From: an uncultured Clostridia bacterium
GTDB taxonomy: Bacteria; Bacillota; Clostridia; Christensenellales; Borkfalkiaceae
Assembly: GCA_944337235.1 (NCBI GenBank)
Contig: CALVLK010000012.1
Span: forward strand, 1-45,195
Length of the DNA: 45,195 bases
Reading direction: 5' to 3'
Position numbers and translations under genes: made by a program. The notes under the pieces were generated by a model. That model ran no database searches, had not been told where the DNA came from, and was given only the letters and a program-made list of their open reading frames with translations. Below are positions 36,241-45,195 of this stretch, in pieces (position 1 is the stretch's first letter; each line of letters starts with the position of its first letter).

Positions 36241-36564
36241 TTATAGCTCCGGTTTGGGAAGCCTGGGTGCAGGCTCGATGGGGAAGGGCTTTTTGGGCGG
36301 AAATCCGGGCTTGGGAAGCGCGTCGCCCTCCTCCTGTTCACTATTTTCCGCGGCGCCGTCGCCATTGTCCTCTTCGGGCGGGCGGCACATGGGCGGCCGC
36401 GCGTGGCGCGGCATGGGCGCAGGATGCCCGTGCGGCAGTTCCTCTGCGGCATGGGGAGGGGAGATCGGCTCCCGGGCAGACGGCGCTCTGCTGCTGCATG
36501 CGGCGCCAAAGAGCAGCACTGCCCCGAGTGCAATGGTTGCAACAATGGATATAGCTCGTTTCAT
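36241..36564 (-). CDS. Small proline-rich lipoprotein
   Basis: A 107-residue predicted lipoprotein: MKRAISIVATIALGAVLLF then GAAC with the modified Cys near residue 23. The rest is disordered and rich in Pro, His and Glu (HGHPAPMPRHARPPMCRPP, later KPGFPPKKPFPIEPAP). It could span or coat the wall; no function is known to me. The start has only a weak SD (GGGAT). It lies alone between parC and the divergent TM1266 operon. Confidence 0.68.
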   Translation of the reverse strand: MKRAISIVATIALGAVLLFGAACSSRAPSAREPISPPHAAEELPHGHPAPMPRHARPPMCRPPEEDNGDGAAENSEQEEGDALPKPGFPPKKPFPIEPAPRLPKPEL

Positions 36565-36607: not shown

Positions 36608-36636
36608 TTGTATTTCGGGCAAGATCGTGATATAAT
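36608..36636 (+). promoter_or_regulatory. Promoter of the TM1266-ABC transporter operon
   Basis: TTGTAT (36608-36613), 17-nt spacer, TATAAT (36631-36636). Transcription should start near 36643, giving a leader of about 105 nt. Confidence 0.8.
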
Positions 36637-36747
36637 ATGAGCACCTGAGCGGAAAGAGCGTTCTGACGGCGAAGGGCTGAATGAGTGATCCTGCGCATAA
36701 GCTGCGCGTTTTCTCCTTTTGCCCTCGGCGGCGAAAGGAGTTTTTTT
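36637..36747 (+). promoter_or_regulatory. Attenuator or riboswitch-like leader with SD inside a terminator hairpin
   Basis: The strong hairpin 36713-36740 has an 11-bp stem (CTCCTTTTGCC with GGCGGAAAGGAG-type 3' arm GGCGAAAGGAG) followed by T7, a standard intrinsic terminator, and then the ATG. The 3' arm contains AAGGAG, the only SD of the gene at 36748. An upstream GGCGAAGGG (36668-36676) nearly copies the 3' arm GGCGAAAGG (36730-36738) and can pair with the same 5' arm, giving a plausible antiterminator. A small hairpin GCGCA-TAAGC-TGCGC is at 36693-36707. I found no known riboswitch or T-box motif in 36637-36712. Confidence 0.75.
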
Positions 36748-36996
36748 ATGGAAGATACCAGGATCGCCGTGCTCTCGGTCATTGCCGAGCATCGGGAGGG
36801 GGCGGCGCAGCTGAATGCGCTGCTCTCGGAATATGCGCCCTGCATCGTGGGCAGAATGGGCATCCCCTATCAGAGGAAGGGGGTCTCCGTCATCTGCATC
36901 GTGCTGGACGCGCCCGTGGCGCATATCAATGCGCTGACGGGAAAGATCGGCCAGATCGACGGTCTGAACGCCAAAACGCTGTTCAGCAAATTTTAA
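36748..36996 (+). CDS. TM1266-family putative regulator of iron-only hydrogenase systems
   Basis: An 82-residue protein with a ferredoxin-like/ACT-type fold expected. It reads RIAVLSVIAEHREGAAQLNALL, IVGRMGIPYQRKGVSVICIVLDAP and ALTGKIGQIDG, close to what I recall of the TM1266 family that is encoded with [FeFe]-hydrogenase maturation genes in Clostridia and Thermotoga. The function is proposed, not proven; no DNA-binding domain is visible. It heads an operon with an ABC transporter and follows the attenuator-like leader; the SD lies inside the terminator stem. Confidence 0.87.
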   Translation: MEDTRIAVLSVIAEHREGAAQLNALLSEYAPCIVGRMGIPYQRKGVSVICIVLDAPVAHINALTGKIGQIDGLNAKTLFSKF

Positions 36997-37017: not shown

Positions 37018-38031
37018 ATGAAAAAGATCGTATCTTTTGCGATGGGTGCGCTGATGCTCGGCGGCATGCTGTCGGCTGCGGCATGCAACCCCACGCCCGC
37101 CGTGACCGAATTTGACGTGTACGCCCCCGACGGCGCCCCCGCGCTTGCACTTGTCAACGCCATCGCGGCGGAGGACGACACCTTCACCTATCATGTCGTC
37201 GATTCCTCGACCATTCAGACGTATGTCACGGGCACGGCGCCCGAGGCGGCGGAATATTGCATTCTGCCCGTCAACCTCGCGAGCAGACTGCTCGGCACGG
37301 GCGAGCGCTATCAGATGCTCGGCACGGTCACGAACGGAAACCTCTATTTCCTCTCGACGGGCAGCACCGTGCTCACGGCGGAGAATATCGCAAGCGAGCT
37401 GCCCGGAAAGACCATCGGCGTCGTACAGCTTGCAAATGTGCCCGGGCTCACCCTGCAGGCGGTGCTTGCCTCCTACGACATCGAATATCAGCAGATCACC
37501 TCGCTCGAAGATGAGAACAGATCGCAGACAGCGGTCAATCTGCTTGCTATGAACGCCACCGACGTGACCCCTGCGGGCGGCTGCGACTACTACCTCTGCC
37601 CCGAACCCGCCGCGACCACCAAGATCAACGGCACGGCGAGCGCGGCGGCGCCCCTCGTGCTTGCGGGCGATCTGCAGGCGCTGTACGGCGACGGCGAGGG
37701 CTACCCGCAGGCGGTGCTCGTAGCGCGCAGCGACGTGGTCGACGAACCCGCCACAGAGGCGCTCATCGGCTATATGCAGGGCAGCGCAGAATATCTTGCA
37801 GACGCCTCGCCCGAGACCGTGCTCTCGCTGCTCGACGACAAGCGCACCGAGGGGCTTGCGCCCTCCTTCAACGCGAACAATCTGAATGCGACGGTGATCG
37901 CAAATTGTTCCGTCCGCTTTGTGCCCGCGCAGCAGGACAAGGCGCGCGTGACCTCCTTCCTTTCGGAGCTCATCGCCGTGAATGCCAATGCGGCAGCAAC
38001 CGTATCCGATGCGTTCTTCTTTGCGGGTTGA
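37018..38031 (+). CDS. ABC transporter substrate-binding lipoprotein, NitT/TauT-like
   Basis: A 337-residue lipoprotein (lipobox SAAAC, Cys about residue 23). The mature part has the type 2 periplasmic-binding fold pattern of NMT1/ThiY/SsuA-like proteins: FDVYAPDGAPALALVNAI, then EYCILPVNLASRLL, LPGKTIGVVQLANVPG and an AVLVARSDVV segment. The substrate is not evident; sulfonates, pyrimidine precursors and others are used by relatives. It lies 21 nt after the TM1266 gene with SD AAGGAAGG, and before the permease and ATPase genes. Confidence 0.85.
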   Translation: MKKIVSFAMGALMLGGMLSAAACNPTPAVTEFDVYAPDGAPALALVNAIAAEDDTFTYHVVDSSTIQTYVTGTAPEAAEYCILPVNLASRLLGTGERYQMLGTVTNGNLYFLSTGSTVLTAENIASELPGKTIGVVQLANVPGLTLQAVLASYDIEYQQITSLEDENRSQTAVNLLAMNATDVTPAGGCDYYLCPEPAATTKINGTASAAAPLVLAGDLQALYGDGEGYPQAVLVARSDVVDEPATEALIGYMQGSAEYLADASPETVLSLLDDKRTEGLAPSFNANNLNATVIANCSVRFVPAQQDKARVTSFLSELIAVNANAAATVSDAFFFAG

Positions 38032-38773
38032 TCTGAAAAATTTCATCATTTCCGTTGCGGCGCTCGTCGTTTTGTGGCTGGGCTGGCTGATCGCCTGCGC
38101 CCTCATCGGCAACGAGTACATTCTGCCCTCCTTTCCCGACACCATGCGCGCCCTCTGGCGCACGTTGGGAGAGGGGGACTTTTGGCGTGCGTTTGCAGGT
38201 ACGCTTTTGCGCACGCTGTGGGCGTTCCTGTGCTCCTTTGCGGCGGGAACGCTTCTGGCGCTGTGCGCCCGCCTGCGGGGGGAGGTTCGCGCCTTTCTGG
38301 CGCCCGTCGTCTCGATCGTGCGCACCGTGCCCACCATGGCGGTCATTCTGGCGCTCCTGCTCTGGACGACGCCCTCCGTCGCCCCCGTTATCGTCAGCGT
38401 GCTCGTGCTGCTGCCCGCCGTCTATGCCGCGGCGCTCGCCGCATTCGACGAGGCGGAGGAGGGGTACGGAAGGCTGTGCGCGGCATACCGCGTGAGTGTA
38501 TGGCGCAGGATCGGCCGCATGTATCTGCCCCTTGCCATGCCCTCGCTGCTGGCACAGGCGGGCGGCATCCTCTCGATGGGGCTGAAGATCACCATCTCCG
38601 CCGAGGTGCTCGCGAACACCTACCGCAGCTTGGGCGGCATGATGCAGGAGGCAAAGATGTTCGTGGACGCGCCCACGTTGCTCGCGCTCACGCTGCTTGC
38701 CGTTGTGCTGGGGTTTGCGCTCGAGGGGATATTCGCCTTTGCCGCGCGCCTTGTCGTGAGGTGGAGATCATGA
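37982..38773 (+). CDS. ABC transporter permease, NitT/TauT-type
   Basis: The membrane subunit of the importer, about 255-263 residues with six membrane segments. The cytoplasmic EAA loop is visible as AAYRVSVWRRIGRMYLPLAMP (about residues 163-183), which docks on the ATPase. The start is uncertain: ATG at 37982 or 37988 overlaps the binding-protein gene by about 50 nt with GGAG 13 nt away; ATG at 38009 has no SD. ATGA overlap links it with the ATPase gene. Confidence 0.9.
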   Translation: MPMRQQPYPMRSSLRVDLKNFIISVAALVVLWLGWLIACALIGNEYILPSFPDTMRALWRTLGEGDFWRAFAGTLLRTLWAFLCSFAAGTLLALCARLRGEVRAFLAPVVSIVRTVPTMAVILALLLWTTPSVAPVIVSVLVLLPAVYAAALAAFDEAEEGYGRLCAAYRVSVWRRIGRMYLPLAMPSLLAQAGGILSMGLKITISAEVLANTYRSLGGMMQEAKMFVDAPTLLALTLLAVVLGFALEGIFAFAARLVVRWRS

Positions 38774-39453
38774 AACTCATCGGGCTTTCCAAATCTTACG
38801 GCGCCGTCGAGGCGCTGAAGGGGATCTCGCTGGACATTCCCGAGGGGCAGATCACCGCCGTTCTGGGCGAGAGCGGGGCGGGCAAGACCACGCTGCTCAA
38901 TGCGATCGCCGGGCTCATCCCTTACGAGGGGAAGATCGAGGGCGGCGGCGCATGTTCCTATCTCTTTCAGGAGGAGTCGCTGCTGCCCAATCTCACGGCG
39001 GAGGAGAATCTGCGCTTTGTGTTGCCCAAGGACGCGTGGGGCGGGATCGTTCCCATGCTTGCACGCGTGGGGCTGCGCGGCAGGGAACGCGCCTATCCCC
39101 GTCAGCTCTCGGGGGGAGAGCGCCGCCGCGTCGCCATTGCGCGCGCCTTCCTCTATCCGCATCGCCTGCTCCTGATGGACGAGCCATTCTCCTCGCTCGA
39201 TCTTGCGCTCAAGCGCACCCTGATCGAGCTGGTGTGCGAGATGTGGCGGCAGGAGGGGAACACCATCCTCTTTGTCACGCACGACATCCACGAGGCGGCG
39301 CTACTTGCCTCCCGCGCCTGCGTGCTCCGTTCGGGCACATTGCGCGCGCAGCTTAAGAGCACCGCGCCCTATCCCCGCGACTTCTTTTCGCGCCTTCCCG
39401 AGGAGGACAGCCTCATGCGCCTTCTCATGCAGCCGGACAATAGCGATCAATAA
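38770..39453 (+). CDS. ABC transporter ATP-binding protein, NitT/TauT-type
   Basis: The 227-residue ATPase of the importer. Walker A is GESGAGKTT (about residues 33-41), the signature is QLSGGERRR (about 115-123), Walker B is LLLMDEPFSSLD, and the switch His is in VTHDIHEA. The last motif is typical of nitrate/sulfonate/taurine ATPases. It lacks the usual length of the N-terminal part by a few residues only. A bidirectional terminator follows. Confidence 0.93.
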   Translation: MKLIGLSKSYGAVEALKGISLDIPEGQITAVLGESGAGKTTLLNAIAGLIPYEGKIEGGGACSYLFQEESLLPNLTAEENLRFVLPKDAWGGIVPMLARVGLRGRERAYPRQLSGGERRRVAIARAFLYPHRLLLMDEPFSSLDLALKRTLIELVCEMWRQEGNTILFVTHDIHEAALLASRACVLRSGTLRAQLKSTAPYPRDFFSRLPEEDSLMRLLMQPDNSDQ

Positions 39454-44935: not shown

Positions 44936-45020
44936 TGGTGGGAAGAGGTGGATTCGAACCACCGAAGTCGTAGACGTCAGATTTACAGTCTGATCCATTT
45001 GGCCGCTCTGGAATCTTCCC
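44936..45020 (-). tRNA. tRNA-Tyr (GTA)
   Basis: On the minus strand GGGAAGA at the 5' end pairs with TCTTCCC near the 3' end, CCA is encoded at 44938-44936, the anticodon loop is CTGTAAA (GTA), and the T-loop has GGTTCGAATCC. The variable arm is long, as expected for tyrosine tRNAs of bacteria; total 85 nt. Confidence 0.96.
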
Positions 45021-45040
45021 ATAATAATGTTGTAAAAAAG

Positions 45041-45116
45041 TGGAGCTGGTGACTGGAATTGAACCCGCAACCTGCTGATTACAAATCAGCTGCTCTGCCG
45101 ATTGAGCTACACCAGC
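45041..45116 (-). tRNA. tRNA-Thr (TGT)
   Basis: On the minus strand GCTGGTG pairs with CACCAGC, the anticodon loop is TTTGTAA (TGT, reading ACA), the T-loop is GTTCAATTC, and CCA is encoded; 76 nt. Confidence 0.96.
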
Positions 45117-45120
45117 AGGG

Positions 45121-45195
45121 TGGTGCCTTGGGGCGGAATCGAACCACCGACAGACGGATTTTCAGTCCGTTGCTCTACCATCTGAGCTACCAAGG
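45121..45195 (-). tRNA. tRNA-Phe (GAA), 5' end cut off by the window
   Basis: The anticodon loop CTGAAAA (GAA), T-loop GTTCGATTC and encoded CCA are visible on the minus strand. The acceptor stem CCTTGG/CCAAGGC indicates that one 5' G lies beyond the window end. Confidence 0.95.

Follow-up and report, generated by a model that had tools for sequence, protein, structure and literature searches.

What governs the operon that couples a TM1266-family gene to an ABC importer in an uncultured clostridium of the Borkfalkiaceae? The operon lies on the plus strand of the window, i.e., the whole stretch of 45,195 nucleotides that was analyzed (contig CALVLK010000012.1, assembly GCA_944337235.1). A sequence-only reading had proposed that an orphan riboswitch or attenuator precedes it, with a link to either the assembly of [FeFe]-hydrogenase or the substrate of the transporter. 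This proposal is now supported by the same RNA occurring before hydE, hydG, and hydF in distant genomes. The leader and the operon comprise the following features:

36608-36636, plus strand: promoter-like site (TTGTAT at 36608-36613, 17-bp spacer, TATAAT at 36631-36636)
36644-36675, plus strand: twin-loop hairpin, with conservation and covariation and without an Rfam match; −8.5 kcal/mol on its own
36668-36676, plus strand: antiterminator strand GGCGAAGGG, i.e., the 3′ strand of the hairpin and the mimic of the terminator 3′ arm; can pair with 36715-36723
36692-36708, plus strand: small GC hairpin in the variable linker, seen in folds
36713-36747, plus strand: intrinsic terminator (arms 36713-36723 and 36730-36740, then seven T residues at 36741-36747)
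36748-36996, plus strand: TM1266-family protein, putative [FeFe]-hydrogenase system regulator (PF21699, E value of 5.4e-27, its only Pfam match)
37018-38031, plus strand: substrate-binding lipoprotein of an NMT1/SsuA-like ABC importer (no Pfam match on its own)
37982-38773, plus strand: ABC permease (BPD_transp_1; PF00528, E value of 4.9e-12)
38770-39453, plus strand: ABC ATPase (PF00005, E value of 8.3e-29)

Transcription is predicted to start at about 36643-36644, downstream of a −35 element with three mismatches to TTGACA, and the leader is thus better bounded near 36644 than at 36637, where the sequence-only reading had placed its start. Direct inspection agreed with the two elements described in that reading, namely a terminator hairpin (36713-36740) that is followed by seven T residues and holds the SD in its 3′ arm, and an upstream copy of this arm, GGCGAAGGG. 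The terminator is built from CTCCTTTTGCC (36713-36723, 5′ arm) and GGCGAAAGGAG (36730-36740, 3′ arm) and folds with −17.4 to −17.5 kcal/mol. Its 3′ arm includes the SD AAAGGAG (36734-36740), the ATG being located at 36748, and this position makes translational control plausible besides termination. GC-rich linkers are common in the leaders of relatives. Folding of the single sequence was ordinary, with z scores of −1.23 for the whole leader (25 of 200 shuffles were as good), −0.12 for the upstream 64 nt, and −1.45 for the terminator part; the case therefore stands on comparison between genomes. Above the gathering thresholds of Rfam 15, the window contains only a tmRNA and three tRNAs. The leader yielded only six weak, implausible matches at E ≤ 10, and 11 motif loci had no Rfam match. 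These scans rule out a known riboswitch, consistently with the earlier statement that no known riboswitch motif is recognizable. The tmRNA (66-454) and the three tRNA genes (44939-45195), all on the minus strand, lie at the window ends. A proline-rich lipoprotein-like reading frame (36241-36563, minus strand), which is the end of a longer minus-strand ORF, diverges from the leader and shares the upstream region with it.

In the window, the hairpin is formed by CCU/AGG pairs, a GA/GA loop (GA/AA in the consensus), a GCGG/CGGC center, an AA/GA loop, AGA/UCU pairs, and an apical GCGU. Two CUGA/AAAG internal loops flank the four-pair center, and each strand reads YCUGA-N4-AAAGR, which renders the hairpin pseudo-symmetric. 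The genus consensus is YCUGA-RCGG-AAAGN-loop-UCUGA-CNGC-RAAGR, and downstream of it come a linker that varies, a stretch resembling a terminator, and the start codon. The hairpin, and with it the mimic whose conservation the sequence-only reading had made a test of the switch, was present in 30 of 30 same-genus leaders read (the best 30 of 93 matching genomes, the window included); 27 fit the strict consensus, and L008, L020, and L028 are slightly off. The covariation called for in the same reading was likewise found, though only across genera. In an alignment of 70 distinct sequences from many genera, which was fitted to the same model that found its sequences and hence leans towards structure, 91.4% of the cells were paired and 8 of 10 pairs exhibited two-sided changes. 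None of 500 shuffles reached any of five measures, and sliding the partners by one to three columns left pairing in only 18 to 50% of the cells. The outer position is taken by C-G or U-A pairs (A-U once) and the central one mostly by C-G, G-C, or G-U (unpaired in 10 rows); the loop-closing pair is A-U, G-C, or C-G, with a single G-U and a single U-A. Columns 10 and 43 deviate from standard pairing in 45 of 69 rows, where A usually faces C. Within the genus, covariation was weak (1 of 10 pairs) because the hairpin hardly varies there. Both loops are made of highly conserved unpaired bases. The apical stem is longer in several loci (L063, L147, and L199, the latter with CCCAA/TTGGG), a variation that suits an RNA hairpin rather than a DNA repeat. 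After prior exclusion of chance-like loci, a −10 element with at most one mismatch was found 0 to 15 nt before the hairpin in 111 of 129 distinct motif loci (7 to 9 nt in 90 of them) and at 293 of 4020 random places in the same loci. The hairpin is therefore placed at the very 5′ end of the predicted transcript.

The exact pattern occurred in 78 stretches of GTDB r220 genome contigs, 72 with TM1266 downstream. Among the rest, L106 is followed directly by the transporter, L053 and L093 lie at the end of the stored DNA, and L060, L094, and L100 lie inside other ORFs. The genome of the window has the pattern once, with one match each to models R1 (built from 20 of the 30 leaders) and R2 (71 matches in 70 hand-picked loci). 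Model R1 matched 49 genomes of the genus and at least three (G020, G036, and G068) had no match; in G037 (L159, the same locus as L106) the transporter follows without TM1266, and a second match in G028 lies at an unrelated place. Among 301 genomes of the family, 88 genomes from 9 of 18 genera matched. Outside the genus, each of the 41 places was inspected: 25 precede TM1266 and the transporter, 12 precede the transporter without intervening TM1266 (11 in one genus, 1 in another), 1 is at a contig end, and 3 are inside other ORFs. Order-wide, 35 of 396 genomes matched, and 18 matches outside the family were distributed as 15 before TM1266, 1 at a contig end, and 2 elsewhere. In the class, 11 of 391 genomes matched, 6 of them outside the order. 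The genes downstream of these six are hydG (L203), aspA-hydF (L204), TM1266-hydG-hydE-hydF (L331), TM1266 plus transporter (L330), the transporter alone (L206, with the binding protein identified by eye), and TM1266-hydE-hydG-hydF (L205). In L205, two hairpins are arranged in tandem (999-1080), and the first of them lacks the outer loop and fits the model in its inner part alone. Phylum-wide, R2 matches were sparse (12 of 398 genomes) and comprised the window, seven unrelated places, and four hyd operons: that of the L205 genome, L221 (between hydE and hydG), L225 (before TM1266-hydG-hydE-hydF), and L227 (before hydG-hydF-TM1266-hydE). Thus, nearly all examined matches of family, order, and class outside the genus precede TM1266, hydEFG genes, aspA-hydF, or the ABC transporter of this operon; aspA is itself associated with hyd operons (PMC11736057, in excerpt). 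Together with L159 and L206, the 12 family loci bring those with the transporter but no TM1266 to 14, in four genera. An unfiltered model search of 20 stretches with TM1266 outside the importer operon, or with other hyd genes, returned six matches at E ≤ 5. Only two looked credible: one in G995 (E value of 0.014, ∼470 nt upstream of TM1266-hydE-hydG) and one in G889 (E value of 0.21, ∼80 nt upstream of TM1266, with a 3-bp center CAC/GUG). The same search found no motif beside the separate TM1266, hydE, and hydF genes of G721.

The sequence-only reading had further predicted that the mimic could pair with the terminator 5′ arm, and both arm-swapping tests and folding energies agree. The 3′ strand of the hairpin (36668-36676) can pair with 36715-36723. 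In 73 leaders, pairing with own and swapped terminator arms yielded −14.70 and −13.41 kcal/mol, respectively (0 of 2000 permutations as low). The T-run rule had ended some leaders of this set too early, and a stricter repeat used 98 distinct leaders derived from 138 loci, with chance-like loci excluded. Own and swapped arms then gave −13.71 and −12.58 kcal/mol (0 of 5000 as low), and shuffled strands averaged −9.83. Own pairing was −8 kcal/mol or better in 95 of the 98, and the own arm beat the median foreign arm in 65. When only the 12 nt after AAAGG were considered, the difference was not significant (194 of 2000 as low), indicating that the pairing signal depends on the AAAGG part. Mutually exclusive pairings thus link the conserved hairpin to the terminator. 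The free fold of the window RNA from 36640 to 36729 (−29.6 kcal/mol) places the mimic region on the 5′ arm of the terminator, with the register shifted; forcing the exact register resulted in −27.3. In RNA extended to 36747, hairpin plus terminator is preferred (−38.8 versus −30.5 kcal/mol with the antiterminator forced), so that an effector holding the hairpin should turn the operon off. Equivalent pairings are available elsewhere: CCGGAAAGGTGCG with CGCTCTCTTTCCG in L204 (−14.7 kcal/mol), GCGGAAAGG with CCTTTCCGC in L331 (−14.9, the hairpin there being followed by only a weak U run), and GGCGAAGGG with CCCTTCGCC in L330 (−17.1).

The importer belongs to a sequence family (NMT1/SsuA-like) that names no substrate. 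Among 17 aligned relatives of the binding protein, 13 matched SsuA_fam and 9 matched NMT1 (E ≤ 1), and their profile retrieved 3hn0 from the PDB (E value of 7.5e-17). The window's binding protein had no taurine, sulfonate, or thiamin equivalog match. The permease scored far below the equivalog cut-offs of TauC (45.1 versus 342 bits) and SsuC (34.2 versus 347), as did the ATPase with its best NCBIfam models, of taurine, phosphonate, and sulfonate types (taurine, 135.2 versus 357; ThiQ, 113.4 versus 245).

To relate the operon to maturation, we surveyed 48 hand-picked genomes, many of them related MAGs, of which 45 carry the motif and 3 have no match (G724, the source of L330, was left out). TM1266, PF02906, HydG (E ≤ 1e-60), HydE (E ≤ 1e-40), and HydF (curated cut-off) were searched, the maturase thresholds being so strict that strongly diverged homologues could escape. 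At these thresholds, HydE, HydF, and HydG were found in none of the 41 genomes of the window's order (the window's genome included), 32 of which reach 90% completeness with no more than 5% contamination; all three were above the cut-offs in 7 of 7 genomes outside the order. Below the HydF cut-off, other GTPases matched in all 48 genomes and in the E. coli and B. subtilis controls. The [FeFe]-hydrogenase domain PF02906 was present in 48 of 48. Among the 30 hydrogenase loci listed by the search and read, 28 (23 of the 24 from maturase-less genomes) encode TSCxPxW, xPCxxKxxE, and ExxxCxGGCxxGGG, which we take to be the three H-cluster motifs; they read TSCCPGW, IPCTAKKNE, and EIMACPGGCVNGGG in the hydrogenase of the window's genome.

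The RNA precedes maturase genes in some bacteria and an importer in maturase-less ones, and therefore appears to govern H-cluster supply, by synthesis in the former and presumably by uptake here. Following the logic of vitamin riboswitches, the importer would most simply bring in a product or intermediate of the maturase pathway. G889 counts against a strict exchange of maturases for importer, since its genome encodes the full maturase set besides a motif-preceded importer (L206). Tentatively, and with doubts that outweigh our confidence, we suggest that a whole order of gut Clostridia keeps [FeFe]-hydrogenase without HydEFG and imports the diiron subcluster or an organometallic precursor from its neighbors, through a dedicated ABC importer placed under the RNA element of the prototrophs' maturase genes. 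If true, neither a salvage transporter nor a regulatory RNA would have been known before for an organometallic hydrogenase cofactor. Carriers of [FeFe]-hydrogenase that lack maturases are already known, and for one of them, Rhodospirillum rubrum, the conclusion was that the enzyme probably lacks activity or serves another role (PMC4967309, in excerpt). Uptake of the cofactor is chemically plausible, since a synthetic [2Fe]-adt complex supplied to living E. coli and Synechocystis cells with apo-hydrogenase led to H2 production (PMC6984386, in excerpt). The hairpin and the survey make it testable how [FeFe]-hydrogenase carriers without HydEFG obtain the H-cluster.

The hairpin is part of an apparently undescribed RNA family, for which structure, competing pairings, and recurring gene context have been computed. 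Probably, the leader is a cis-acting transcription attenuator of this new family that governs acquisition of the H-cluster's diiron part. Such an RNA would start with the 32-nt hairpin, twofold pseudo-symmetric and with two similar CUGA/AAAG loops. When unbound, its 3′ strand would move to the terminator 5′ arm, forming the antiterminator and allowing transcription of the operon; an effector that holds the hairpin closed would let the terminator form, stopping transcription and burying the SD, as expected for an OFF switch. Given that the same RNA precedes maturase genes or the importer, the signal would most simply be sufficiency of an H-cluster precursor or intermediate. The switch direction, the effector, and the transporter substrate are what we infer from this arrangement.

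As to the sensor, TM1266 has about an even chance of being the RNA-binding protein that acts on the hairpin. The window's protein belongs to the family by its NCBIfam TIGR03959 score (93.5 bits versus a cut-off of 60.8), a solved relative is available (2nzc), and no DNA-binding domain was recognized. Across 133 distinct sequences, many from one genus, each of seven positions holds a basic residue (K, R, or H) in ∼95% of cases or more, and TM1266 is usually the first gene 3′ of the hairpin. The gene was found in 93 of 101 same-genus genomes, in 47 of the 48 surveyed, and in 44 of 45 motif genomes, the exception being G231 (89% complete). It is likewise encoded by genomes in which no motif was detected (G106, G123, and G137, and G036 and G068 of the same genus), so its presence proves little, and the co-occurrence may be a mere consequence of hydrogenase presence. 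No viral TM1266 relatives were confirmed in IMG/VR. The hairpin provides a concrete candidate target for this putative regulator. Slightly less probable, in our estimate, is a true riboswitch, in which the hairpin would bind a small molecule directly (an H-cluster precursor or intermediate, or the transporter substrate), perhaps one per loop. The highly conserved unpaired bases in both loops, the location at the extreme 5′ end, the tandem copy in L205, and a regulon of the kind usual for riboswitches (biosynthetic genes in certain lineages, a transporter in others) all speak for direct binding. However, two 2×2 internal loops in one hairpin would make a structurally simple aptamer, the symmetry fits a dimeric protein, and a putative regulator without recognized DNA-binding domain accompanies the RNA almost throughout the survey.

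Another RNA-binding protein as the sensor, or iron, redox state, or an amino acid as the signal, seems unlikely to us: symmetric hairpins that compete with terminators are known protein targets (LicT/SacY type), and in L175 and L178 the gene after the importer resembles that of a Rex redox repressor (by eye), but the recurring context is limited to hydrogenase maturation, TM1266, and one importer, rather than comprising general iron, redox, or amino acid genes. We give very little credit to a DNA operator just 3′ of the promoter, where a transcription factor would bind YCTGA-N4-AAAGR as a direct repeat. The site does immediately follow the −10 element and its half-units can be read as a direct repeat, yet the N4 segments are complementary, not identical, and covary, the apex differs in length between loci and is sometimes drawn out into a stem (L199), and the 3′ strand fits its own terminator arm better than foreign ones. 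The ordinary single-sequence folding would agree with the absence of any regulation, as expected of a plain constitutive terminator or a fortuitous similarity; the probability of this reading is negligible in view of conservation across families and classes, covariation, maintained competing pairing, and recurring gene context, and chance similarity is ruled out by these comparative data.

Among the closest known systems are the RAT antiterminators of LicT and SacY, symmetric hairpins that compete with a terminator and have known protein targets. As here, a ∼30-nt 5′ hairpin with two internal loops competes with an intrinsic terminator; in the LicT and SacY systems it is bound by a protein dimer. 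Their sequence differs, no such regulator gene was recognized in these operons, and here the hairpin opposes the antiterminator, so that binding should terminate transcription. In PyrR and TRAP attenuation, a protein and the metabolite state choose between antiterminator and terminator, as in our proposal; RNA and protein differ, and the context here is hydrogenase cofactor supply. The HMP-PP (thiS motif) riboswitch is also a very small RNA tied to a terminator. Its aptamer lies inside the terminator stem, whereas the hairpin described here (36644-36675) is upstream of the terminator (36713-36740); moreover, no thiamin gene was recognized in the loci, and Rfam matching did not assign the leader to this family. 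Moco and Wco riboswitch RNAs are larger than the present one, which has no Rfam match. They are metal-cofactor switches that sometimes precede hydrogenase genes (PMC9481103, in excerpt). In the open-access literature, we found no account of an RNA element that acts on [FeFe]-hydrogenase maturation, and a term search found no hydE, hydF, or hydG in the main text of two large surveys of new bacterial RNAs (PMC11109978 and PMC8632094). Judged by title, open-access papers on TM1266 were irrelevant, a genome announcement apart (PMC9679718), and the protein is named only as a putative regulator in the excerpted text of PMC7325909. At the DNA level, Rex is a reported regulator of hyd genes, including hydG, in other Clostridia-type species (PMC6391272 and PMC8457756, both in excerpt).

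Some further arrangements were recorded by eye. In four loci from two genera in which TM1266 lies away from the importer (L310, L313, L317, and L318), it follows a sigma-factor-like gene and precedes a short-chain-dehydrogenase-like one; L314 is similar, with a thymidylate-synthase-like gene after TM1266. None of these five has a credible motif match at TM1266. A weak and probably fortuitous match (L224, 3047-3084; E value of 0.019) precedes a membrane protein resembling the substrate component of ECF transporters. The neighbors of the importer operon gave no clear clue to the substrate; apart from pur-like genes, they recur in few loci. Genes resembling purE, purC, and purF (clusters 7 to 9, 15 to 16 loci each, in more than one genus) are often located further downstream of the importer, e.g., in L145, L146, L152, L170, and L176, and also in L061, L063, and L101; in many loci they lie past an opposite-strand gene.
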